DNA of 28,128 bases, from contig JAEUWP010000431.1 of the NCBI GenBank assembly GCA_018524725.1, positions 1 to 28,128 on the forward strand, in the 5' to 3' direction. The notes beneath the pieces were generated by a model that saw nothing but the letters and a program-made list of their open reading frames with translations, was not told the origin of the DNA and did not search any database. The position numbers and the translations under genes are program-made. The stretch comes from Podaxis mareebaensis. Taxonomy: Eukaryota > Basidiomycota > Agaricomycetes > Agaricales > Agaricaceae. Shown piece after piece: positions 1,467-26,194 of the stretch (positions are counted from its first letter, which is position 1; each line of letters opens with the position of its first letter).

Positions 1467-3109
1467 GAACTAGACAGATGGGGAGAGGGTTTAGAAGGAG
1501 GGGGGGAGGATTTGATGTTGCCAGAAGAGTGGAGGAAGTTAATGATATTGACTGGTGACATATTAGGGAATTGGTTTTGAAGAGTAGCATATATTTGTAA
1601 CTCTTCAGGTTGCAATGGGGAGTTGGAGGCCACTCTGGCATAGGATGACCTCTGGGTTGAGGGGGAAGGGGCATTTGACCTGGGGCAGGTCTTGTAATTG
1701 ATGGGAGGGGGAATGGAAGAAGGAGGAGAGGGTTTAGGAGGAGGGGCTTGAGGAGGGAAAGTGGGAGCAACAATAGGCTTACACTGAGCTTGGGTGGCTA
1801 TTGGTTTATGAGGTGCCCATTGGCAAGTGACAGGTGTCCATGCACTAGAGTTAGTGTCACCTTTCCTGGAGTTTTGAGCTCCAGGAGTGGCTTCAGGAAG
1901 AGTAGAGGTGGCAGGGGGAGGGGGAAGCATTTCAGTGTCAACATTTGAACCAGAAGACTCACCTGGTTTGTTCATATCTTGCAAGGGGAGATGAGAGAGG
2001 GTGATTGCTCATGCTGTGTCCTTATTGAATTGTGAATCTGGGTCTTGGGACTGCCCAATGATGCCAGGAGGAAGGATGGAAGAGCTCTGGGGCTGCCCAG
2101 TAGCACTTTTGGGGGAAGGGGAGGACACAGCTGGTGCCTTTTCAGCCTGACATTCATTGCAGTGGCCTGTGGACATTGGAGTGGGAGTAGGAGAAAGAGT
2201 GTGGGAGGGGGGGAACTGCATAGACATGAAGTTGTACAGTCTTAGTTGATGACTATTGTAAGGGACAGATTTGTTGTGCAATTGTTCAGAATGTGCAATG
2301 GCCTGGAGGATCTGGATGAGGTGATGAGTGCCTTCAAAGGAAGAAAGGTTGCCTGAATTAGCCCAATTCCCTAAATAGGAGGAAACAAAGCCTAATAAGG
2401 AAGTGAGGCAATTAAGCCCCATGATGTCACTAGTGTTGGTGATGTCTATATTGAATAAGGCATTGCCAAGAGATTCATGGATGGATGACCAATCTGTTCT
2501 GTGGGTTGGCTGTGCATCTCCATGAGATTGTGCAGTGGGAGGGGGAGAGATGGGAGTGAAAGAGGGGATAATGGGGAGAGGATCAGAGGGTAGAGACTTG
2601 TCCCAAGCAGCTCCAGGAGTGGGGGGGACAAAGCCATAGGAGGAAGCAATGGCCTGAGAAGGGGAGAGGACTCTGTGAGATGGCAGAGCTATCTCAGGAG
2701 AGAGGTCAATTTCATCATGAGCCAGTGTGATAGAGGGATGAATAGAGTGAGGAGTGGAGAGGCCCTGGGAGCCTTCTTGTTCATCTTCAGCTTCTTCTGC
2801 TGAGGAAACTGATGCTGCATCATCATCATCTTTGAATTTCATACTCTTCTCTAAGTGATTAGAGAGAGACTGGTCAGTGGAGTAAGAACATTTGATTCCA
2901 ATTGAGGGTGTAGGCAAAGGCAGTTTGTACAGGAAGTCTTCCCTAGTGTTATCGAGGATGAATGGTCCTTCAGAGGGGTCTCAAGGTTGAGTTGAGACAG
3001 GTGCTAGGCTGGCACTTGAATGCCGATGATGAGTGATACTGGAACAAATGCTGTTGGCAGTCTTTTTCATACCTCCAAGGAAGCTGCTAGTCTCCTTAGA
3101 GTCTTTCAT
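1467..3109 (-). pseudogene. LINE copy A ORF1 (Gag-like), N-terminal two thirds
   Basis: The reading frame can be followed from a candidate ATG at 3109 (MKDSKETSS) to the insertion point, all in one frame from about 2940 downwards. The one nonsense codon inside 1984-2917 is a TGA near 2009, where copy B has CAA; both could come from an ancestral CGA. The frame also has a TGA near 2980. The protein is acidic and Ser/Pro-rich at the N-terminus (DDDDAASVSS), has a middle conserved region (ITNTSDIMGLNCLTSLLGF) and a Pro-rich linker before the knuckle region. Copy B (20106-24090) is collinear. No enzymatic motif is visible; assignment rests on the downstream CCHC knuckles and on the neighbouring ORF2 of copy B. 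Confidence 0.85.
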
Positions 3110-3493
3110 AGTGAAATAGAATGAGTTTGTTGATTCCTTGTACTACAAATAACTGTGCCACTGAAACAATAGTGGTAGTTACTGAGAAAGGAAGGTTGAA
3201 GCAGTCAAGTCAGTTTCAAAAGTTGTTCTCAGAGTGTGCTCTCTGAAGGAGGGTTTGGAGTTCCTGGAAACAGGAGTCAGAGAAAGGTTGATAGGAGGGA
3301 GGAGGGAGTTAGGGATACAGATTAGAGGGAGTGCACCTAGTTTTAGGCAGGGGTAGATGAGACATGTTGGATGATGGTCTGGACAAAAGGTCAGAGGGTG
3401 CTCTACCAAAGTTATCTTGCAGGAGACTTGGGTCAACTCATAGCCATGAGGACAAAAGAGAAGGTAGGGAGTGGAAGTGTAGCTTTATGATTC
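3110..3493. other. LINE copy A 5' leader and unassigned decayed sequence
   Basis: Positions 3110 to about 3190 match the region upstream of ORF1 in copy B (about 24090-24190; for example ACAATAGTGGT). Beyond about 3240 the two copies diverge, so the LINE 5' end or a later junction lies near there. I see no supported gene in 3240-3493; the 85-codon minus-strand frame here has no recognisable motif. Confidence 0.55.
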
Positions 3494-4119: not shown

Positions 4120-5486
4120 TGTTATGAACTTGCCCTAGATATTGTGTACCAACATCATCTACCATGCCCTTATCCATGAACTTAGCCTCCCAAACACCTC
4201 TCAAGACACCACCACTGATACCAATGAATCTACCAGCAACTCAACTCACTATAGAAATGAAGCCTTTGCCAATCATCACCTTCCTGGTCACACCTCACTT
4301 TTCTCTGAAGACTAGCCAACCCCCAGCCCTATGTTCTACTCCACTGATTGCATGATGACTGAAATACTGTGCATCACTTGGGAGAATGCTCCCTTCACTC
4401 ATGTCTTCAACCTCAATGGCCTTTACATCCAGACTATTACTAACAACTTCAACTCATCCTGGGCTCATGGTTGGAAGATGATTCCTTACACTGGAGAACT
4501 AATAGTATTCCTTCACCCCTACATGATGTACCTGCTAGAAGTCATCCCCCATATTATTAAATATGAAGTCACCCACAGCCTTTACTTTTGAGAAGTAGAG
4601 GTTTATCATATCAATCCTAACTCTGAGGATCCACCTTCTATTCCCCCATGGCTTATCCAGCTTCCTCCACTCTTCAGCATTGATTCCAATGTTCCCAGCA
4701 TTGACAAGTCACCACCCAAAGAACCAGCCACTGCTCTACCTCCACCTCCTCCTTACCCACCTCCCTATGCCACAGTAGACATCTCCTCATCATCCTCATC
4801 ATTGCAGTCACCACACTGCAGCTCTATGGTTGAGTCAGACTCTTCTGACTCTCCACTCATTGGGAACTTCACAGTTCCCTCCTCCACCTTATCCCCTGCA
4901 TTGTTTACTTCTGACTCTTCTAATGGACAACTTCACCCAGACTTAGACTTGTAGTATATGCCTCTTATCTATTGATCAGGATGTACAGACTCATCTCTAG
5001 TACTACTCTCTGTTCCTGTTTCTCACTACTCCTCCATAACTTGTCTTGAACTATTCTTGGACTTAGTCTATTTTTAGTCTTTAGTCTGTTTCCATTCTCA
5101 TCCCATCTCCACTCTGCAGTTACATGTTTCTGATTGGCTATTGGACTTAGCAATACATTGTCATAATTTCCTGATTAGGACTTAGATGTGAGCTTAAATA
5201 GCTGCCCATGTACTGGAAGTGCAAGCTTCTAATATTCTCAAATTGTATCTGTGTTCTTCACTCTTACAATTGATGTTAGTTGACAATCAGTGTGGTAGTA
5301 AACTCTCTATTGGTCATACCCTCAACTGATAGAAGTTTGACCTCTGAGTGTGCTTAATTGGACACTTGCCTTGCCACCTACTTACCATCATTCTTCTTGG
5401 TAGATCCTGGTGTTTGTGAACCATCTACTGAGATAGCCACCCCCTAGCTTAAGCATAGGCAACCAGTGATAAGGACCACCCTAACA
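4120..5486 (+). mobile_element. Solo LTR, family A, copy 1
   Basis: This is a 1367-bp unit starting TGTTATGAAC and ending CCTAACA. The termini form a TGTTA/TAACA inverted pair and are flanked by a perfect 5-bp duplication (CTAGG). TG...CA ends with a 5-bp TSD are diagnostic of LTR-retroelement integration. No internal domain is attached, so it is a solo LTR left by LTR-LTR recombination. By eye I find no CpG dinucleotide in the whole unit, so it is old. A TTAAATAG box near 5198 and the following CATGTACTGGAAG are conserved in all three full-length copies and are a candidate promoter core. Confidence 0.93.
4124..4954 (+). pseudogene. Decayed LTR-A ORF (copy 1)
   Basis: This is collinear with the intact 273-aa frame of copy 2 (22600-23421), starting at an ATG inside the LTR terminus. 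The span is 277 codons with no net frameshift. I read three internal stops: TAG at codon 5, TAG replacing a Trp in SEDW, and TGA where copy 2 has CAA (codon 156). The conserved block (MMTEIL, WENAPFTHVF, AHGWKMIPY, IVFLHPYMMY), the PPPYPPPY tail and the final LHPDLDL are all retained. Loss by point mutation only suggests the frame was coding when this copy inserted. Function unknown. Confidence 0.8.
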
Positions 5487-6760: not shown

Positions 6761-7735
6761 ATGGAAACGAACCTCGCTAATTCACCCGATTTCGCGCTAC
6801 ATGTATACCGGACGCAGAATATCTGTGACAACGCCTTAGATAATGCGAAGCTGGAAAAACGATGTCCGCTCGACAATGGGCGACACGATTGCACGCTCAT
6901 CTCCACGTGTTTTGCCGCCGGTCAGCTCGACAGGCTTCCCCTAGAACTTCTCACCGAGGTCCTGCTGCAGCTAGACATTCCTTCGCTGACTCGCTTCCGC
7001 GGCCTCAACCGCCGCGCAATGCAGCTTGTCAACTCGGTCCGCCAGTACACCGCAATCATCGAGCATTGCCCTAACATCATCCGCGCCATTATCAGCATCC
7101 AGGCGGACGCGTTCGACTGCGGTACACTGTACAGAACGCTTTGTACAAGCCAATGTTCCACGTGCAATCGCTTTGGCGATCATCTCTATCTTATAGACTG
7201 TCGCCGCGTCTGCTACTTCTGTTTCACCCGGCGGCCGGAATACTTCCCCCTCACAAGCCACGAAGCATCTAGGTTGTTCACCCCCAACGCAGTGCCACAG
7301 AGCAGTACTAAAAGCTCCCGCAAACTTTTAGGGTTGGCAAAACTCCCGAGCATCCTGAGCCTGCCCGGGCGGTACTGTGCTGGTTGGACTACGAGGGGGG
7401 GTAGTTTGGAGCGGAAGCGACTTCGACTCTATGATCGCCAGGCAGTGGTCCAGAGTCTGGCGGGCCGTGGTCTTCCACAGCTGGACAAAACCACCAGGGA
7501 GCCTAAGCGATTCATGGCCATCATCACCGCGCCGGTTCTGCTCAATGCTGGCCGGCAGGTCGACCGGGGATTCTTCTGCCTCGGCTGCAGGGACGAGACG
7601 GAGGAGAAAACTAAGCACTTTAGAATCAAATACACGACACAAGGCATTTTAGAGCACATTGCGAGCTGTGGACCAGTAGTAGAGAGGATCCCCGGCAGGT
7701 TCATGCATGTTGCCAAGGACCGGATCAAGTCGTAG
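6761..7735 (+). CDS. F-box protein with Cys-rich C-terminal region (ascomycete type)
   Basis: This is a 324-aa intronless frame. Residues about 55-95 form an F-box (QLDRLPLELLTEVLLQLDIP, then LTRFRGLNRRAMQLV), which in known proteins binds Skp1 and links substrates to an SCF ubiquitin ligase. The region that follows (CPNIIRAIISIQADAFDCGTLYR) and two CxxC pairs at residues 132/135 and 151/154 resemble a family I know from ascomycete genomes, where the Cys pairs may bind zinc. A C-terminal CxxC (273/276) with HxxxC (299/303) may form a second zinc site. The ATG at 6761 is the first in frame. The frame is intact, CpG-rich and unlike the repeats around it. The substrate is unknown. Confidence 0.88.
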   Translation: METNLANSPDFALHVYRTQNICDNALDNAKLEKRCPLDNGRHDCTLISTCFAAGQLDRLPLELLTEVLLQLDIPSLTRFRGLNRRAMQLVNSVRQYTAIIEHCPNIIRAIISIQADAFDCGTLYRTLCTSQCSTCNRFGDHLYLIDCRRVCYFCFTRRPEYFPLTSHEASRLFTPNAVPQSSTKSSRKLLGLAKLPSILSLPGRYCAGWTTRGGSLERKRLRLYDRQAVVQSLAGRGLPQLDKTTREPKRFMAIITAPVLLNAGRQVDRGFFCLGCRDETEEKTKHFRIKYTTQGILEHIASCGPVVERIPGRFMHVAKDRIKS

Positions 7736-7799
7736 TCAGCTTTCCTGGATGAGGTACCTATTTCATAAAATCCCAAGCCCCTGTAACTAAGCTCTTCCT

Positions 7800-7805
7800 A
7801 ATAAA
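7800..7805 (+). terminator. AATAAA polyadenylation signal of the F-box gene
   Basis: A perfect AATAAA lies 65 bp after the F-box stop codon, in a plausible place for cleavage and polyadenylation of that transcript. Confidence 0.55.
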
Positions 7806-8333
7806 ACTGAAGCTACGGGTTATTCACATTCGAACGAGAGGGCTGATCCAACTCTTGGTCGGAGATAGTTTTTGGTGTTCTTTTACCGAAAACGAATCTT
7901 TCGCAAGCTTCTGTCAGCTATAGTTCAAAAGCGCCATGGTGGTGCCTACACATGTGTCTGGTATTCAATGTACTTAGGACGCGTTCGAATGCCTTCAGCA
8001 TTCGAATAGTCAAGCCTTTGACCATAAGGTAGACGACACCAGAACATAGCACCTTGAGTAATTGTGTTACATAAGCGCCAAGCGCGGCAAAATCTGAGGG
8101 CTTTCAAAAAAAAAAAAGCTGGACATGCAAATTTAGACCAGGGATAGTCTAGTTATATTAGAAACCTCTCCTCATACTCCTATCGAACCTTCCGCCTTAT
8201 CTCTGGGAAGAATACGCGGTACATACAACGCTAATGTTACTCCTTATCTTCTCACATAAGTTCTTTCCACTTTTCCCTGCGTCGAAAATATCACGGGTAG
8301 AACCGGCGCGCACGGGCCGTTACGCTACTGGGG
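7806..8333. other. Intergenic region inside the gene island
   Basis: The stretch has mixed composition with some CpG and a 12-A run near 8107. I see no supported coding frame, RNA gene or repeat. Confidence 0.5.
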
Positions 8334-8546
8334 CTAACCGCCCCCACGCCCACCTTCCCGGCGGTACATTGGATCCTGAGTCCCGGCCGGCACCATATGC
8401 TTTCTGCAATAATGTACCGACGCTGGCTGGTACTCTCTCGTTGGTTTCGCGCATCGCACGTTTGAACCAGCATGCACCTGGCACTGAACGAACTCCTCGG
8501 ACTTTTCACAACCACAGGTGTATTGGTGGATCTTTTGAGTGCACAT
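8334..8546 (-). CDS. Small Cys-rich hypothetical protein
   Basis: This is a 70-aa frame starting ATG TGC. It opens MCTQKIHQYTCGCEKSEEF, with cysteines at residues 2, 11, 13, 22, 32 and 47 and a histidine-rich HYCRKHM segment. The spacing of Cys and His suggests a metal-binding mini-domain, and small ascomycete proteins beginning in this way are familiar to me, but I cannot name a function. There is no signal peptide. The C-terminus is Gly-rich and may be replaced by a further exon. A TTTATAC element lies upstream on the coding strand. Longer frames on the opposite strand (8234-8548) lack such a pattern, so I prefer this strand. Confidence 0.5.
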   Translation of the reverse strand: MCTQKIHQYTCGCEKSEEFVQCQVHAGSNVRCAKPTREYQPASVHYCRKHMVPAGTQDPMYRREGGRGGG

Positions 8547-8737
8547 AGTGAGTCTTTAGGGCGTGGTGAGTAATGCGTCTATGTCGGGCTATTCCGCAGC
8601 GACAGAGTTTTGCTCACTTAGTATAAAGCGTAGTTTGACAGAGTCGCAGTGTGAAGCAGATAAGTGGTAGTGCTGTTTCCACTGTTTCCGCGTTGCTTGC
8701 TTTCGATAGTAAGTTAGCTGTCTGTCGCTGATGTAGG

Positions 8738-9286
8738 ACAGAGCCCCTTGCCGGGGTGGAAAACCTCTGGCATCCAGTGAAGCTGAACGAGCTGGATTTC
8801 GCACAAGAACAATTGAGGCAACGAGTTCGCATTTCAACACACCCTGAATTTAATGACGGCAAGCCCGTTCTTATCAAAACTGCCGTTTGGCCTTGGGAAA
8901 TCGCCTCCATTGAGGCTGAGACGACTGTTTATGAACGCATCCGTGACAAGGATATCAGCCCCAGGTTTCTTGGTCATCTTACTGAGGGGAAAGACGGGCG
9001 TGTGGTTGGATTCGTTGTTGAGTGGATACAGGATGCGAGGATCGCAGGGCCGGGAGACCTCGAGAGCTGCAGGAAGGTCTTGGGGCGATTGCATGAGCTT
9101 GGGATCAAACATGGCGACATCAACAAACACAACTTTCTTGTATGGGAAGGGCACGATGTGGTTTTAGTAGACTTTGAGGCTGCGAAGGAGTGTTCACCTC
9201 AGGAGCTCAAAGACGAGATGAATGCCCTCGAGGAAAACCTACAGGACACAAGTTTCCGGGGTGGAATAAAAGTAATTTGTGAGTGA
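8738..9286 (+). CDS. Kinase-like (protein kinase/APH fold) protein, 5' part missing
   Basis: The frame opens after a TGA at 8729 and ends at a TGA at 9284-9286. Numbering from the GTG at 8756, the kinase-fold landmarks are a Lys at 41 (VLIKTA), a Glu at 55 (EAETTVYERI), a catalytic loop HGDINKHN (Asp121, Asn126) and VDFEAA with the metal-binding Asp139 in the DFG position. The run TEPLAGVENLWHPV, which extends above the GTG, fits a small ascomycete kinase-like family. There is no in-frame ATG, and the nucleotide-binding glycine loop is not visible. Either an upstream exon is joined through the TAG near 8734 as acceptor, or the gene is 5'-truncated. The C-terminus looks complete (DTSFRGGIKVI). 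The substrate is unknown. Confidence 0.7.
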   Translation, partial: TEPLAGVENLWHPVKLNELDFAQEQLRQRVRISTHPEFNDGKPVLIKTAVWPWEIASIEAETTVYERIRDKDISPRFLGHLTEGKDGRVVGFVVEWIQDARIAGPGDLESCRKVLGRLHELGIKHGDINKHNFLVWEGHDVVLVDFEAAKECSPQELKDEMNALEENLQDTSFRGGIKVICE

Positions 9287-10883: not shown

Positions 10884-11405
10884 GATGCAATCAATATACT
10901 TTTACTCTTATTTATATAACACACTAATAGTTGCTTAGGCTGAGCTGAGGAGCTAGACTCTAGAGGGAAGGGTTTCACCACAAGCAACTATCAGAGAGAC
11001 TTGACATATTAAGCACCTAAACAGAGTTGAAGGTTGATTGGCTTGAATTAACTGTGATATATTGAGGATTGGTACTACTAGTACATTCACAGAGAGCTGT
11101 TAAATACTTTGTGAGTCTGCACTATCCTTTAAGCCATGCTCTATATGATCCTGAAAATCTATTAGTTGCTGCCATAATGTGGTGTATAGTGTATTGTAAT
11201 GCTATGGATGCCATTTAAAATGTAACCTATATTATTGCTCTTGGCTCCACTCTCTGCACAAGAAACTGAGTCTGCCTGTCTGAGGTCTCCAAATGCCTTT
11301 AGTGCAATGCTACTGATACTTTTTGCCTCATTAGGGGTCATTTCAATCATATTTCTCATCTTAGTTCTACTGACTTGTATACCACTATCAAGTCAATTAC
11401 CTTGA
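10884..11405. other. Unassigned decayed element sequence
   Basis: This CpG-poor sequence contains a 65-codon minus-strand frame (11162-11359; NEAKSISSIALKAFGDL...) whose composition looks protein-like, but I recognise no family. Possibly a retroelement remnant linked to the LTR end at 10883. Confidence 0.35.
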
Positions 11406-11705
11406 TGTTATGAGCTCACCCCAGCCATCTCATACTAATGTCATCTATCATGCCCTTATCTACAAACTCAGTCTTCCAAATGCCTCTCAAGGTACTACCA
11501 CTGATACCACTGACTCTGCTGGCAACTCAACTCACTACTGAAATGAAGCATTCACCAACTAGCACCTTCCTGGCCACACATCTCTCTTCTCTGAAGACTG
11601 GCTGACCCCTGGCCCTCTATTCTACTCTACTGATTGCATGATGACTGAAATGCTATGCATCACATGAGAGAATGCTCCCTTCAGTCATGTATTCAACCCT
11701 GATGG
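11406..11705 (+). mobile_element. LTR family A fragment (copy 4), 5' 300 bp
   Basis: It starts TGTTATGAGCTC and follows the first 300 bp of family A, including the internal frame (IYHAL, NEAF, LPGHTSLFSEDW, CMMTEML, ENAPFSHVF) with three stops (TGA, TAG, TGA) but no frameshift. It ends abruptly in CCCTGATGG, where family B LTR copy 2 begins. The missing remainder is not found downstream, so the junction is a deletion or recombination rather than a simple insertion. Confidence 0.85.
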
Positions 11706-12351
11706 TGTTACATAGAGACGGTTTCTACACGTTGTCTCAGTGCGGAGAGATACTGTCCTAAGACAACCCAGCACTATTAAGTTCCTGAAGTGGAACACCC
11801 GTCCATTCTCCTGAGAGAACTAGAGGCTGGCTGGAAATCTCGCAGGGACTGCCTAGGGAGAGATACGACTTGTAAGGTCGCAGGCTACTCTGTAGGTTTA
11901 GCTGTTATGCCAGTTATCCTGTCAAGGCAGGTAGAGCTCTCACGCAGCAAGAAGATAAAGCAGAAGACAGTCCTCACTATTCTCGTGCTATGTACAAATG
12001 ATCATAAAGCTAAGTTCTACTTACTTTACGAGCTATCTAAATACAAGGGCGATTGCTATTCTACATATCCTAAAGGAGAATCTTCGTAGTTACTTCAGTA
12101 CTCTAAGTATAGTAGACCAAGCCTGAAGTAAGATGAGATCTACAGAAGGCAAGCTATTATTACATGACATATCACCGAGACTGAGTGCTAAACATAGTGC
12201 ATCTTCGGAAGATCCAAGGTGGAGCTGAAGTTGCAGTGAAAGGTGGTCAAGGTGGACACTTGGAGTCAGGAGGTGGAAAGGTGGCTGGTGAATGATGAGG
12301 TGGGAATGTGAAAGAGGCATAGATGGCAGTGGAAGTGAAAGGAGTGTAACA
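11706..12351. mobile_element. Complete LTR, family B, copy 2
   Basis: This is a 646-bp unit with TGTTAC...GTAACA ends (6-bp inverted repeat), homologous to 3494-4110 and 26195-26313. It retains several CpGs (CACGTTG, GTGCGG, CTCGCAGG), so it is younger than copies 1 and 3. Flanking pentamers differ (GATGG left, GGGCA right), so no TSD: it marks a recombination junction between a family A LTR and a Gypsy pol gene. The 99-codon frame at 11790-12089 is not conserved in copy 1 and is not called. Confidence 0.8.
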
Positions 12352-13135
12352 GGGCATTGTAAAAATTGTTGCTTTAGAAGTTCAAATGCTTTCTGTACTT
12401 CTAGATTCCATTCAAATTTCTTTGTTTTTCTCATGAGTGCATGTAGTGGATGTGCAATTTGAGCATAGTTTTTGATGAACTTTCTGTAGAAGTTACAAAA
12501 ACCTATGAATTGTCAAATGTTCTTTGCAGTTTTTGGAACAGGCCAGTCTTCTATTCCTTTAAGTTTTATTGGATCCATTTTGATAGAATCTGGCTTGATT
12601 ATAAAACCAAGGTATTCTAGATGTTGTTTCTTAAATTCGCATTTTTTTGTTTTAAGATAGAGGTCATTCTTGTCTAGTATTTCCAGGACTTTGATAGTGG
12701 AATGATCTAGTTCTTTGATTCCTTTGGCTGGGATGAGTATGTCATCCATATAGATGATAGCTTCTTCTTTAGATAATAGTTCTTGAAAGAGATGATTCAT
12801 CATTGATTGGAATGTAGCTGGAGAATTAGTCATGCCAAAGAACATGACAGTTGGTTTGTATAATCTATTTGGAATGCAAAAGGCTGCTTTCCATTCATCT
12901 CCTTCTTGAATTCTAACATTGTTGTAGCATAGACAAACATCTAATTTAGTGAAGTATTTGGCTCCTTTAAGTTTGTCCATTATTCTTGAGATGTTAGGGA
13001 TTGGATGAGCATTCTTAATAGTGTGATTGTTAAGATAGCAATAATCTTGACAAGGACATAGATCTCCTCCTTTCTTTCCTACAAAGAAGAAAGATGAGGC
13101 CATAGGTGATTGTGATTTATGAATGTATCCCTTTC
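12352..13135 (-). pseudogene. Ty3/Gypsy reverse transcriptase, truncated after the RT/RNase H junction
   Basis: From about 13127 the frame reads GYIHKSQSPMASSFFFVGKK, then QDYCYLNNHTIKNAHPIP, KGAKYFTKLDV (first catalytic Asp), GMTNSPATFQ, IIYMDDILI (catalytic YMDD pair), LYLKTKKCEF and YLGFII. This is the canonical order of Ty3/Gypsy RT. An in-frame TGA near 12513 interrupts AKNI*QFIGFCNFYRKFI, after which KKFEWNLEVQKAF leads into the RT-RNase H connection and is cut at 12351 by the family B LTR. RNase H and integrase are missing. A TGA also precedes KGYIH. The 196-codon core is open, which is unusual for this decayed region. Confidence 0.9.
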
Positions 13136-20105: not shown

Positions 20106-22595
20106 TCAGACATTTACTGCTCTTGTATTGAAGTCAGCTTTAGCCTTTTCAGTCTTTAACTCCTTTAGTTTATTGATAATCCATTCTTTGTTGTAACAAT
20201 GATGGAAGAATGGGCACTTGTCACTGTTCACATGGTGTTCTTTGGAGCTACATGACAAACAGTTAAAGGAGGTTATGTGAAGACACTCTTTGATGTTAGC
20301 AGGGGTAAGGGGATGGGGATTAGGGCCAGCCTTGCTGCAACAGTAGTGCCCATCACATCAGTAGTTATCAGTATGGTGGGGGTCACCACAAATAGTGCAC
20401 CTAGGATTGTGTGCTTTACAGAGATGAGTGGGATGTCCCCACCTCCACCATTGGTTACACAAGGGGCTAGCAACCCTCATACTAGTGCCTCAGAAAGTAC
20501 ACACTCTATTCTCAAAAAGAATGGTGTGATTGATATAGAATTTGGCCCTAGAGGCTGTTTGTGAATCCCACAGATCAAAGAAAAGGATGGCTGAGTCCAA
20601 GTGGGGGGAGACATGGCAGAAGTGGGGTTTACCAATGAGGTGGTTGACAATGTTGGCATAGGGGGAGGCATCAATGGTGGGCTTAATATCATCCACTGTG
20701 TGAGGAGTACCATCTTTCTTAAAGTAAGGAAGGTTGGTAAGTTTGATGAAAGATTTTAACATAGGAAGTGAGGGAATGACTGTATTCCTAATGTCAGGTG
20801 AAGCAAAGGCTGACCTATTGGAGTCAGTGATGCCTTTCCTGATAGCAGAAAGCTCAGCCTCAGAGGCAACAGAGCTAGTATTGAGCTAGAGAGTACATTT
20901 GTTCTTCTTCACTAACTTGATGTGAAGAGGAAGGCTCTTTTGGTAGAGTTCATTGTTGCAACAACAAACAATGAGCTCCAAGGATGTAATCATAAGGTGT
21001 GTAAATATGTCATTGAAGGGAATAATGACATTTTTATGAGAAGGTCCCTGTGTAGCTTTTGGTTGAGAAGATGGATGAGGAAATGGTGAGGGAGATTTGG
21101 GTGGAAGCAATTTGATATCACTGGAGTTGTGAAGGAAGTTAATGATGTTGACCAGTGACATTTGAGGGAATTGATTTTGTAGAGCTGCATATTTTTACAG
21201 TTCCTCTACTTTGAGTGGGGTTTGAGATGCTGCTTTGGAATACAATGTTCTTTGGGTAGATGGGAATGGAGCCCCAGACCTGTATTGAGGTTTGGTAGCT
21301 TGGTTGGTTAATGGGAGGGGGGGTAGAGGGTTAGGCAGAGGGGAGAGGGAGAGGGGGATTAGGAGCCTTTGGGGAAAAAGACAGGGCTATAATAGGCTTA
21401 CACTGACTAGGAGTGGCTACTGTTTTACAAGGTGCCCAGTGACAAGTGACAGTGGACTAGGAGCTAGGGTTAGGGTTACCCTTACCTGAACTGGAAGTCT
21501 CAGGAGGGGTGTCAGGAGTGGTGTTAGAAGAGGGAGGGAGAGGAAGCATATCAGTATCAATATTAAAGCCAGATAACTCACCTGGTTTGAGAGGGTCAGC
21601 CAGAGGGAGACATGAAAGGGTGATTGCTTGAGCTGTGTCTCAAGTGAGTTGCAAATCTAATTCCTGGGAAGATCCCATGGAAACAGCAGGAATAGTGGAA
21701 TCTACTGGGAAAATCCCATGAAGATTTGAAGGAGAAGGGGGGGACACAGCAGGAGCCTTTTCAGCCTGATGATTGTTATGAAGACCAGTTGACATTGGGG
21801 TTGGAGTCAGGGAAAGAGTATGGGATGGCAGGAATAACATTGAGATAGCATCATAGAGATGCACTTTGTGGTTGTTGTATAGGACAGATTTGTTGCACAA
21901 TTGTTCAGAGTGTGCAATGGTCTGAAGAATATTAATGAGGTGAGAAGTTCCCTTGAAGGTCAAAAGATTTCCATTGTTAGCCCATGTAGTGAGCCAACTG
22001 GAAGTAAAGCTGAGGAGTGATGTTAAAAAGTCTAGGCCTTTGATGTCATCAGTATTAGTGACATCCATATCACTGAGGGTATTACAGATAGTGTTACAGA
22101 TGGCTGACCAATCCATTCCACAGGACAGCTGTGCATCAACATGAGGCTGCACACAGGAAAGGGGGAGATGAGGGTGAAGGTAGGGAGAGAAGGGAGAGGG
22201 TCAGAAGGTTGAGACTCATCCCAAGTGGCACCTGGAGTAGGAGGGATAAAGCCATATGAGGAGGCAATGGCCTGGGAGGGAGTGAGAACCCAGTGGGATA
22301 ATGGTGTGAGTTCAGATGACATTTCAAGTTCCTCATGGACCAGCACAAGGGATGGATGGATGGAGTGGGGAGTGGAGAGGCCTTAAGAGCCTTCTTCTTT
22401 GCTCTGATTGCCTTCTTCAGTGCTATAGACTGAAGAGGCAGCATTGTTATTATCATGAACTTTCAAACTCTTATGAGTTTGGTTGGAAAGAAGTTGATCA
22501 GTAGAAATAGAATGTTTAGTTCCAAGAGAGGGGGTAGGTGAAGGTGGCTTGCATATGAAGTTGTCCTTGTTCTTGAGATCATTGAAGGGAGTGCA
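20106..22595 (-). pseudogene. LINE copy B ORF1 (Gag-like), main part
   Basis: This is collinear with copy A. It shows the acidic N-terminal stretch, SQAIASSYGFIPPTPGATWD, ITNTDDIKG-like LDFLTSLLSF (as NTDDIKGLDFLTSLL), SEQLCNKSVLYNNHKV, the Pro-rich linker, SLVNIINFLHNSSDIK, the NVIIPFNDIF block, and SAILFFDLWDSQ. Near the end there are three zinc-knuckle-like clusters: CNQWWRWGHPTHLC (second Cys lost), CTICGDPHHTDNYWC (spacing altered) and CLSCSSKEHHVNSDKCPFF. It ends at TGA 20106-20108, about 50 bp before ORF2, the usual LINE order. Multiple stops and small shifts occur. The frame continues beyond the solo LTR at 22596-23966. Confidence 0.87.
22591..22595. repeat. Left 5-bp TSD of solo LTR A copy 2
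   Basis: GTGCA, repeated at 23967-23971 next to the other LTR end. Confidence 0.93.
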
Positions 22596-22599
22596 TGTT

Positions 22600-23421
22600 A
22601 TGAACCAGCCTGGTACCTCCTGCCACAATATCATTTATCATGCATTAGTCCATGAACTTGGACTTCCAAATGCCTCTCGCTCCACCACTCAAGATATGGG
22701 TATACCAGCTGAAGACTCAACCTGCTACCGCAATGAAGCTTTCACCAATCGTCGCCTTCCTGGCCACGTGTCCCTATTCTCTGAAGACTGGCCAACACCT
22801 GGACCACTCTTCTATGAGACTGACCGCATGATGACAGAAATATTACGCATCGCTTGGGAGAACGCTCCCTTCACTCACATCTTTGATCCTGATGGGTTAT
22901 ACGTTCAAATGATCCACAACAACTTTGACTCTGCCTGGGCCCACGGTTGGAAGATGATTCCTTATGCTGGAGAACCCATTGTATTCCTTCACCCCTACAT
23001 GATGTATCCACCTGAAGTGGTCCCGCACATCATCAAGTACGAAGTCGCCCACGGATTCTACTTTCAAGAAGTAGAAGTCTACCATGTTGACCCTAACTCT
23101 GACGAACCTCCGGCCATCCCTCCCCGTCGTACTCAGCTTCCGCCCCTCCGCAGCATCGACTCCAACGTTCCAGGCATCGACGAGTCAAACCCAGAAGAAC
23201 CCATCAGTGATCCCCCTCCATATCCACCACCATACATCACCAGTGATATATCGTCATCATCGTCATCGTCCCCGCACCGCAGCCTCATCTTCCTCCATGA
23301 AGATTCTCCTGACTCGTTGCCTTTGACTGGTAACTTCCCTATTCCCAGTTCCGCCTCGTCTCCCAATTCCTACTCATCCGACTCTTCTAATGGACGCCTC
23401 CACCCCGATATGGACTTGTGA
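22600..23421 (+). CDS. Intact LTR-encoded protein (273 aa), unknown function
   Basis: The ATG is bases 5-7 of the LTR (TGTTATG). Residues about 10-165 form a domain conserved in all copies: IIYHALVHELGLP, NEAFTNRRLPGH, SLFSEDWPTPGPLFY, MMTEILRIAWENAPFTHIFD, AHGWKMIPYAGEPIVFLHPY, VVPHIIKYEVAHGFYFQEVE. The remainder is Pro/Ser-rich and probably disordered, with two PPPY motifs (205-208 and 209-212), a serine run after residue 217 and an acidic end. There is no signal peptide or membrane segment. I recognise no family. The frame is open for 17 codons above the LTR into flanking LINE sequence. The PPxY motif in known proteins binds WW domains such as those of Nedd4/Rsp5 ligases; that role is inference here. 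Confidence 0.75.
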   Translation: MNQPGTSCHNIIYHALVHELGLPNASRSTTQDMGIPAEDSTCYRNEAFTNRRLPGHVSLFSEDWPTPGPLFYETDRMMTEILRIAWENAPFTHIFDPDGLYVQMIHNNFDSAWAHGWKMIPYAGEPIVFLHPYMMYPPEVVPHIIKYEVAHGFYFQEVEVYHVDPNSDEPPAIPPRRTQLPPLRSIDSNVPGIDESNPEEPISDPPPYPPPYITSDISSSSSSSPHRSLIFLHEDSPDSLPLTGNFPIPSSASSPNSYSSDSSNGRLHPDMDL

Positions 23422-23666
23422 TATATAACCAGTAAATAACTCCTCTTCTATCTTGCTACAGACATTCCACCTTGTATTCCTGTATCCCGCCTGAACTCTA
23501 TCTTGAACAGTTTCCTTAGTTAGTTAGTTTCCTTTCTGATCTCTGTTTCTATTCTTGTCCTAGTTCTATTCTTGTCTCACTCCGCTCCGTAGTTACGCTT
23601 CTATTGACTCTCGGACTTATAGCATTACTTCGTCATAACTACTAGATTTGGACCTTAGAAGTAAAG

Positions 23667-23675
23667 CTTAAATAG
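23667..23675 (+). promoter_or_regulatory. Candidate TATA box of LTR A
   Basis: CTTAAATAG followed by CATGTACTGGAAG is kept in copies 1 (about 5194) and 3 (minus strand). It lies downstream of the LTR ORF, as a U3 promoter core would. A transcript starting here would not include the ORF of the same LTR. Confidence 0.4.
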
Positions 23676-23966
23676 CCGCTCATGTACTGGAAGCGCAAGC
23701 TTCCTATATTCTCAAATCTCAAGTTATTGTCTACCTTTAACTTCTGATTGATGTTAGCTCACGATCAGTGTGGTAGTAAACGCTCTGTTGGTCATACTCT
23801 CGACTGATAGACGTTCAACCTCCTGAGTGTACTTAATTGGACACTTGCCTCACCACCTTCTTATCGTGATCCTTCTTGCTAGATCCTAGTGCCTCTGTGA
23901 ACCATCTAGTAAGATAGCCACCCCCTAGCAAAGCTTAGGCGACCGGTGATAAGGACCAACCTAACA

Positions 23967-23971
23967 GTGCA
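23967..23971. repeat. Right 5-bp TSD of solo LTR A copy 2
   Basis: GTGCA, identical to 22591-22595. Confidence 0.93.
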
Positions 23972-24821: not shown

Positions 24822-26194
24822 TGTTAGGGTGGTCCTTATCACTGGGCACCTATGCTTAAGCTAGGGGGCAGCTATCTCAGTAGATGGTTTGCAAGCACTA
24901 AGATCTACCAAGAAGGATGATGGTAAGTAGGTAGTGAGGCAAGTGTCCAATTAAGCACACTTAGGGGTTGAACTTCTATTAGTCAAGAGTATGACTAATA
25001 GAGAGTTTACTACCACACTGATCATTGACTAACATCAATTGTAAGAGTGAGGAACATAGATACAATTTGAGAATATTGGAAGCTTGCACTTCCAGTACAT
25101 GGATGGCTATTTAAGCTCTACATCTAATGTCCCAATCAGGTAGTTATGATGATGTAGTACAAAGTCCAATGGTCAATCAGAAACATGTAACTACAGAATG
25201 GATATGAGATAAAAATAGAAACAGACTAAGAGCTAGAAATAGATTGAGTCCAAGAATGGTTTGAGATGAGTTATAGAGAGATAACTAACAGGAGACAGAA
25301 ACAAGAAGTAATACTAGAAATAAGTCCATACATCCTGACCAATAGACAAGAGGCATATACTACAAGTCTAGGTCCCAGTGAAGTTGTCCATTAGAAGAAT
25401 TAGAAGTAAATGAGGCAGGGGATGAGGCAGAAGAGGGAACTGTGAAGTTCCCAACAAGTGGAGAGTCAAGAGAGTCTGACTCAATCATAGAGCTGCAGTA
25501 TAGTGACTGTGATGATGAGGATGACAAGGAGACATCTCCAGTGATGTAGGAGGGTGGGTAAGGAGGAGGTGGAGGCAGAGCAGTAGTTGGTTCTTTGGGA
25601 GGTGACTTGTCAATGCCAGGGACATTGGAGTTGACTCTGAAGAGGGGAGGAAGCTGGGTATACTGTGGAGGGATGGAGGGTGGATCCTCAGAGTTAGGAT
25701 CAATGTGATAGACTTCTACCTCTCAAGAGTAGAGTCCATGAGCAACTTCATATTTGATAATATGAGGGATGACTTCCAGCAGGTACACCATATAGGGATG
25801 AAGGAATACAATTGGCTCTCCAGTATAGGGGATCATCTTCCAGTTATGGGCCCAGGACAAGTTGAAGTCATTTGTAATGGTTTGGACATAAAGACCATTG
25901 GGGTCAAAGACATGAGTGAAGGGAGCATTCTCCCAGGTGATGTGTAGTATCTCAGTCATTATGTGGTCAATGGAGTAGAATATAGGACCAGGGGTTGGCC
26001 AGTCTTCAGAGAAGAGTGAAGCATGACCAGGGAGGCAATGATTGGTGAAGGCTTCATTCCTATAATGAGTCAAGTTGCTGGCAGATTTGTTGATATCAGC
26101 AGTAGTGTTCTGAGAGATGTTTGGGAGGCCAAGTTCATGGATAAGAGCATAGTAGATGAGGTTGGTGTGTGATGTCTGGGATGAGTTCATAACA
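24822..26194 (-). mobile_element. LTR, family A, copy 3 (full length, reversed)
   Basis: This is a 1373-bp unit with the same ends as copies 1 and 2, read on the minus strand. Flanking pentamers differ (TATAA on the left, CAGCC on the right), so it is not a simple solo LTR. It probably derives from recombination between LTRs of different insertions or from a deletion. It sits inside a family B LTR at its 5' side (26195-26313). CpG-poor. Confidence 0.9.
25360..26190 (-). pseudogene. LTR-A ORF, copy 3, one stop codon
   Basis: The ATG overlaps the LTR terminus. 277 codons run collinearly with copy 2 and I find a single internal stop, TGA at codon 156, after HGLYS. Copy 2 has CAA there and copy 1 also has TGA, so an ancestral CGA that mutated on either strand explains all three. 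The first 155 residues (IYYALIHELGLP, SLFSEDWPTPGPIFY, WENAPFTHVFDPNG, IVFLHPYM) and the tail (one PPPY kept, the second PPSY; final LHWDLDL) are conserved. Confidence 0.85.

Follow-up and report, generated by a model that had tools for sequence, protein, structure and literature searches.

A solo long terminal repeat (LTR) with a long open reading frame was identified in the window, i.e., the whole 28,128-nt stretch of Podaxis mareebaensis DNA that was analysed. The LTR is 1371 bp long, has the ends TGTTATG...CCTAACA, and is bordered at both ends by GTGCA, a perfect 5-bp target-site duplication (TSD), as described in the initial annotation (Table 1). The triplet at LTR nt 5-7 is an ATG, and the frame that it opens runs for 273 codons and occupies 60% of the LTR; both features had been claimed previously and were found again. 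First-order Markov simulations of these 822 nt yielded a stop-free run of at least 273 codons, in any of the three frames, with a frequency of 0.0002. The same frame had also been noticed in other copies in the window, and it is present in three diverged relatives of the solo LTR (a second solo LTR, a 5' LTR and a 5' fragment), where stops break it, yet the pieces remain in register.

Table 1. Features of the solo LTR and of its relatives in the window.
Feature	Position	Strand	Basis or remark
5' target-site duplication GTGCA	22591..22595	.	sequence
Solo LTR (TGTTA...TAACA) of the self-priming chromovirus family	22596..23966	+	boundaries by TSD
C-terminal 273 codons of ORF4 and stop, LTR-encoded	22600..23421	+	continues upstream into the internal region in full-length elements
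PPPYPPPY (PPxY-type) motif in Pro/Ser-rich tail	23212..23235	+	sequence
TATA-like box TTAAATA, predicted LTR promoter	23668..23674	+	same box in 10/10 elements
AAGCTTCCTATAT, predicted RNA 5' end and self-primer	23697..23709	+	complementary to a site just inside the 5' LTR
3' target-site duplication GTGCA	23967..23971	.	sequence
Diverged solo LTR, related sequence, TSD CTAGG	4120..5486	+	stops interrupt frame, PPxY retained
Diverged 5' LTR, followed by leader to about 24200	24822..26194	-	frame open 155 aa, resumes past a stop
5' fragment of diverged LTR with beginning of the frame	11401..11710	+	window comparison

Several other features are present in the window. A reverse transcriptase (RT) fragment at 12465-13133 on the minus strand comes from another chromovirus-like family and is about 61% identical to the RT of the family with the LTR-encoded frame. 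Two related copies of another repeat, with a minus-strand ORF, are located at 1914-2781 and 21533-22399, and the solo LTR adjoins the second of these. A 324-aa ORF on the plus strand (6761-7735) contains an F-box domain (PF00646, E = 3.3e-6) and is probably a host gene.

The genome (36.95 Mb, 429 contigs) was searched for the LTR-encoded protein. A fungal host agrees with its content of the fungal transcription-factor domain PF04082, which was detected at 35 places and at none in 14 control genomes. At least 141 places, the window LTR included, were scored out of 322 candidates at 70-100% identity, and a search with the LTR by DNA gave at least 42 matches, with 40 of 286 candidates scored. No stop was present inside the match in 81 of the 141 scored places, some of the 81 being partial matches. 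Seventy loci, a set without the most diverged copies, were read in sequence. The alignment comprised 68 non-redundant LTR copies that cover the ORF to its last codon, 66 of them taken from loci and two being diverged copies from the window; duplicates, late-starting copies and copies ending before the ORF end were left out of it. The frame is open for at least 265 codons in 51 of the 68 aligned copies and has an early stop in 14, and the ATG at the LTR border is retained in every copy (one row starts two bases later). Over codons 1-265 of all aligned copies, the stops consist of 17 TGA, 4 TAG and 1 TAA, and most of them are therefore consistent with CpG decay. The two LTRs of the same insertion (eight elements, L031-L046) differ by 37-103 CpG-type changes and 0-31 others. 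CpG decay dominates these differences, and LTR dating must therefore mask CpG sites. At locus L048 (contig C79), two LTR copies are arranged head to tail. The first breaks off at about 829 nt, and about 40 nt further on the second starts; this is possibly a nested or recombined LTR.

Selection on the ORF was measured among the copies of this one genome, and dN/dS was computed with CpG-affected columns masked. All 13 distinct gap runs in the ORF are multiples of three, compared with 12 of 66 in the remainder of the same LTRs. The dN/dS values of the ORF were 0.097, 0.059, 0.041 and 0.042 in four divergence classes, i.e., about 0.04-0.10 after CpG masking, a value near 1 having been set beforehand as refuting. 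Thirty-three disjoint pairs gave 0.07 (95% interval 0.049-0.095), and a comparison of the diverged window copies with other copies gave 0.16. In 150 random diverged pairs, dN/dS was 0.086 in the real frame versus 1.76 and 2.71 in the other two, and the noncoding part of the LTR gave 0.63-0.82 over its three frames. The ratio was 0.842 in 15 pairs with at least 99% identity, a value that rests on only 19 changes, and 0.41 (95% interval 0.16-1.45; 18 changes in eight pairs) between the two LTRs of the same insertion. This pattern is consistent with selection during transposition and with weaker or no selection after insertion. The frame-keeping gap runs and the CpG-masked dN/dS far below 1 bear out the earlier claim that the LTR is protein-coding, and these substitution patterns indicate purifying selection on the protein, similar in strength to the selection on pol.

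Full-length elements of this family were recognized as ten same-strand LTR pairs about 8.8-8.9 kb apart, eight of which were examined in detail. The element is about 10.2 kb long. The LTRs of the eight elements are 1365-1385 bp long, 5-bp TSDs were found in 8/8, and termini of the TG..CA type with short TSDs are shared by these elements and the solo LTR of the window. Conservation of the frame in full-length elements, which had been named as a check on the coding claim, was observed in both LTRs of all eight, with one early stop among the 16 LTRs. In one element, L041, pieces of pol match the Pfam protease, RT, RNase H and integrase, in that order, and a chromodomain (PF00385, E = 2.2e-16) is located at the end of pol. 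A 13-nt stretch just inside the 5' LTR is complementary to the LTR sequence AAGCTTCCTATAT in nine of ten elements, and 10 nt are complementary in the tenth. This sequence lies about 29 nt past the first base of the TATA-like box TTAAATA, which is present in all ten. The box and the primer complementarity place the predicted start of the RNA near LTR nt 1100; the ORF (nt 5-826) would therefore sit wholly in U3. The element is, on sequence grounds, a Ty3/gypsy chromovirus with a self-priming site.

The LTR frame continues upstream of the LTR in full-length elements and forms part of a longer reading frame, ORF4. Two elements have 606 and 608 open codons in this frame, counted across the border. 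ORF4 has about 729 codons, of which about 455 lie upstream of the LTR and the last 273 inside the 3' LTR, and it crosses the polypurine tract that lies between the internal region and the 3' LTR. It had been suggested that such an ORF would sit downstream of pol in the 3' LTR, and it is located there in the full-length elements. A sliding three-frame scan of ten elements detected gag, then pol in frame 1, and then frame 2. In L041 coordinates, frame 2 had the lowest ratio in all windows but one between 7934 and 9793, a stretch that takes in the start of the LTR (8975). Only at 8564-8713 did frame 1 give a lower ratio (0.23 versus 0.49 for frame 2), and the frame-2 ratio was weak (0.42-0.49) over 8564-8893.

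In the full-length elements, the dN/dS of ORF4 was 0.085 in its internal part (8100-8560), 0.18 at the LTR border and 0.082 in the LTR part; pol and gag (2453-3250) of the same elements gave 0.06 and 0.16, respectively. The 3' internal region was compared in 20 copies. ORF4 opens with an ATG at 7614 that follows a stop at 7611, each found in 19/19 readable copies. The stretch from 8850 to the LTR is stop-free in 19 of the 20 copies, one copy having a stop near the border; invariant stops occur there in the other frames. On contig C45, a natural copy can be read from the ATG to the stop in the LTR, with 728 residues after the start. Of the seven distinct gap runs in internal ORF4, three have lengths not divisible by three; we take these to be lesions, each in one or two damaged copies. 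The LTR part is very likely coding and fused in frame across the LTR border. The initial annotation had proposed a stand-alone 273-aa protein starting at the LTR terminus, and this proposal is not supported, as the frame continues under selection for about 455 codons upstream. The ATG at the border is most simply an internal methionine, and extra initiation there is conceivable. Overall, it is highly probable that the window contains the solo LTR of a chromovirus whose ORF4 ends in the 3' LTR.

A further reading frame, ORF3, overlaps ORF4. It consists of 479 codons in the pol frame, and its ATG at 7463, 9 nt past the pol stop, was found in 12 of 13 readable copies. The first invariant stop of this frame is located at 8900 (20/20 copies), and stops ahead of it are CpG-type codons or occur in single copies only. 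ORF4 lies in the +1 frame to ORF3, and the overlap extends over about 1.29 kb. Synonymous permutation of the ORF4 codons was carried out for 17 of the 20 copies, which are non-independent, and gave 0.3 frame-1 TAA/TAG observed versus 6.8 expected. The means for three segments were 0.06, 0.12 and 0.12 versus 2.05, 3.20 and 1.57 expected, respectively. When TGA was also counted, 15 of the 17 copies were depleted at 0.05 and two were not. The same permutation detected no stop depletion in frame 0. The LTR part, used as a control, also showed some depletion (3.7 versus 6.9), and the test is therefore biased to a degree. Changes that are silent in ORF4 were also silent in ORF3 in 16 of 108 cases versus 4.7 expected, and changes that are nonsilent in ORF4 were silent in ORF3 in 44 of 79 cases, about 39% being expected. 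Constraint on ORF3 is strongest at about 7560-7940 and 8580-8714, and the segment 8100-8560 looks neutral; the exact extent of ORF3 is therefore less sure than that of ORF4. Two overlapping genes, ORF3 and ORF4, are probably present downstream of pol, and both appear to be maintained.

Other explanations of the LTR frame have been considered. The frame could be open by chance on a T-poor strand with few stops, and frame 1 is indeed open over long stretches too. The chance of such an artefact is negligible, however, because frame 0 of the same region holds many invariant stops, the Markov chance is 0.0002, and the reading is refuted by the phase of the indels (13/13 frame-keeping gap runs) together with the frame-specific dN/dS. 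Capture of a host gene that owes its maintenance to the host and not to the element would agree with the lack of a Pfam match and with the many places free of stops. This origin is highly improbable, since the copies form a single transposing family in which LTRs are paired and TSDs are present, and the LTR pairs of the same element are less constrained (0.41, 95% interval 0.16-1.45), which is consistent with selection on the transposing lineage. A gene of the Sag type, in which the LTR encodes a stand-alone 273-aa protein from the ATG at nt 5-7 and the frame is open further upstream only by accident, would account for the presence of this ATG in 68/68 aligned copies and for the 81 of 141 scored places without stops. 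This possibility is very unlikely: the terminus TGTTA is constrained in its own right, coding in this frame extends upstream beyond the LTR (dN/dS 0.085 internally and 0.18 at the border), and the border is stop-free in 19/20 copies while other frames hold invariant stops. As the main reading, a stand-alone LTR gene was rejected on account of the coding frame upstream of the LTR.

The relation between the two overlapping frames also allows another reading, that ORF3 and ORF4 form one protein through a +1 move by ribosomes or through splicing in the dual-frame region. ORF4 is +1 to ORF3, nucleotides from about 7620 to 8050 are unusually invariant, the ATG of ORF4 is in a poor context by general rules of initiation, and the Bet protein of foamy viruses likewise consists of the N-terminus of Tas and of Bel2. 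A single protein is nevertheless somewhat unlikely, as ORF4 has a conserved ATG straight after an invariant stop in 19/19 readable copies, and the stops of ORF3 ahead of 8900, located far past any early switch, are CpG-type or restricted to single copies.

A sequence TATAAAA is located 36 nt ahead of the ORF3 ATG in 10/10 elements. This box overlaps Tyr-Lys codons of pol, and its conservation may therefore be due to coding. An internal promoter ahead of ORF3, with TATAAAA as the candidate box, is suggested tentatively. One or two ATGs lie between the starts of ORF3 and ORF4 in 7 of 19 copies, and none in the other 12, which would agree with leaky scanning. This absence is not significant, as 43% of shuffles have none, and such scanning receives no statistical support from the ATG count in the 19 copies (P = 0.43).

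The LTR-encoded tail is rich in Pro and Ser. At least one PPxY motif is present in 68/68 aligned copies, including the diverged window copies, and two or more are present in 44. The motif in the ORF4 tail may point to a host partner with a WW domain. As a check for transmembrane segments of an envelope-like product, the best 19-residue Kyte-Doolittle mean was calculated for one copy; it is 1.51, slightly under the usual threshold of 1.6.

The following mode of expression and action is proposed. With the ORF in U3, the RNA of the element would carry the frame only at its 3' end, and ORF4 would be made from the 3' LTR side. A subgenomic RNA would perhaps be started at the TATAAAA box at the end of pol, and translation of ORF4 might then result from leaky scanning past ORF3; alternatively, a +1 shift or splice would lead from ORF3 into ORF4. 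ORF4 would be an accessory protein that serves the element and combines a conserved part with the Pro/Ser-rich PPxY tail, and this tail might recruit a WW-domain protein of the host, for example a ubiquitin ligase of the Rsp5/NEDD4 type. Judged from the motif, recruitment of a WW-domain host protein by the tail is a doubtful prospect, more unlikely than likely. U3 is copied to both ends of the element at each reverse transcription, and both LTRs and solo LTRs carry the protein tail for this reason. The wider idea that the element has independently evolved a module in the style of complex retroviruses, with an internal promoter, two accessory genes and a U3-coded PPxY tail by which a ubiquitin ligase of the host is hijacked, is speculative and rather improbable. 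If it were true, each insertion and each solo LTR would scatter a copy of the tail that could be expressed from flanking host promoters.

The internal part of ORF4 was found at 59 places in the genome, and a match to the LTR frame lies directly next to it in 41 of these. We take the other 18 to be truncated, or to be followed by an LTR outside the 141 scored places. The RT copies were grouped by identity classes inside this genome, and 70 of 150 RT rows were used for the comparison. ORF4 was present at the right distance downstream of 29 of 36 RT copies with at least 78% identity, and downstream of 0/34 copies with 63-68% identity. Within this genome, no ORF4 was recognised in the closest relatives of the family.

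When the LTR part and ORF4 were used as protein queries, no homologue was detected in a database that seems thin for such elements. A control search with the element's own RNase H piece found just 24 proteins, the best being 54% identical, and absence from the protein database therefore means little. No match was obtained in a scan of viral contigs, and a PDB sequence search gave matches at chance level only. In Pfam, no family was found for the LTR-encoded protein or, up to E = 5, for two pieces of the ORF3 frame (one element) and for ORF4 (one copy). A structure model of the LTR part, built from the window sequences alone, had a mean pLDDT of 39.8 and was too poor to use.

The Sag gene of mouse mammary tumour virus is a gene of the LTR alone, whereas nef, like bel2 of foamy viruses, runs into U3. 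Sag resembles the fungal frame in that the U3 of the LTR codes for a protein downstream of the structural genes, and differs in that the fungal frame starts outside the LTR and has no superantigen context. Sag had been offered previously as the parallel; the LTR-coded protein past pol holds, but the closest layout is that of foamy bel2 or nef, with a frame starting upstream of the LTR.

In foamy viruses, tas and bel2 overlap at the 3' end, a spliced protein, Bet, is formed, and the gene ahead of them contains, at its end, an internal promoter with a TATA box (PMC3798896, PMC6950176). In bovine foamy virus, a non-coding part of U3 is described downstream of bet/bel2, and bet/bel2 would therefore reach into U3, as far as the available parts of these sources go (PMC3798896, PMC6950176). 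The fungal element is similar in having two overlapping 3' ORFs, the second extending into U3 by the RNA start predicted here; the TATAAAA box is a candidate counterpart of the internal promoter. It differs in host kingdom, in the lack of a Pfam match for its ORFs and in that no env was recognised. The likeness to tas(bel1)/bel2 is one of analogy and not of membership, because no Pfam family matched the ORFs.

Self-priming LTR retrotransposons include Tf1 of S. pombe and Tj1 of S. japonicus (PMC4600332). As in these elements, the Podaxis element carries, immediately internal to its 5' LTR, a sequence complementary to the predicted 5' end of its own RNA, and encodes protease, RT and integrase; it differs from what the available part of that source describes in having two further overlapping ORFs past pol and an LTR that is 60% coding (PMC4600332). 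Crapaud from Podospora is a fungal chromovirus with two ORFs, LTRs of 339-443 bp and a variable U3 (PMC10787394). It shares Gag, RT-RNase H-IN-chromodomain and LTR subfamilies with the Podaxis element, but in the part of the report available its U3 variation is treated as promoter or enhancer and not as coding (PMC10787394). Chromoviruses with an additional ORF of unknown function beside gag and pol have also been reported, although no ORF running into the LTR is described in the available part of that source (PMC2864245). A literature search, with subscription journals thinly covered, found no described fungal LTR with a selected protein frame.

LTRs are usually taken as non-coding in annotation, insertion dating and promoter studies. 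A large part of this LTR is coding under strong selection, and LTR-based dating and masking could therefore mislead. A terminal repeat that codes for the end of a putative accessory protein is, by analogy, an arrangement otherwise known from complex animal retroviruses. The family offers a fungal system for testing accessory genes past pol, which are known mainly from complex retroviruses, and an instance of two long genes that overlap and can be compared across many natural copies.

Two observations were also made near the 5' end of the element. In the gag region (3344-3583 of L041 and nine other elements), frame 0 is constrained (pN/pS 0.17-0.21), and frame 2 is constrained on both flanks; this change of frame is possibly a frameshift, an intron or a further overlap. 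The leader between the 5' LTR and gag (1454-2053 of L041) shows low divergence (0.020-0.034). Most of its windows contain many stops in all frames, and frame 0 has few stops at 1544-1783; a short ORF or conserved RNA elements may be present in the leader.
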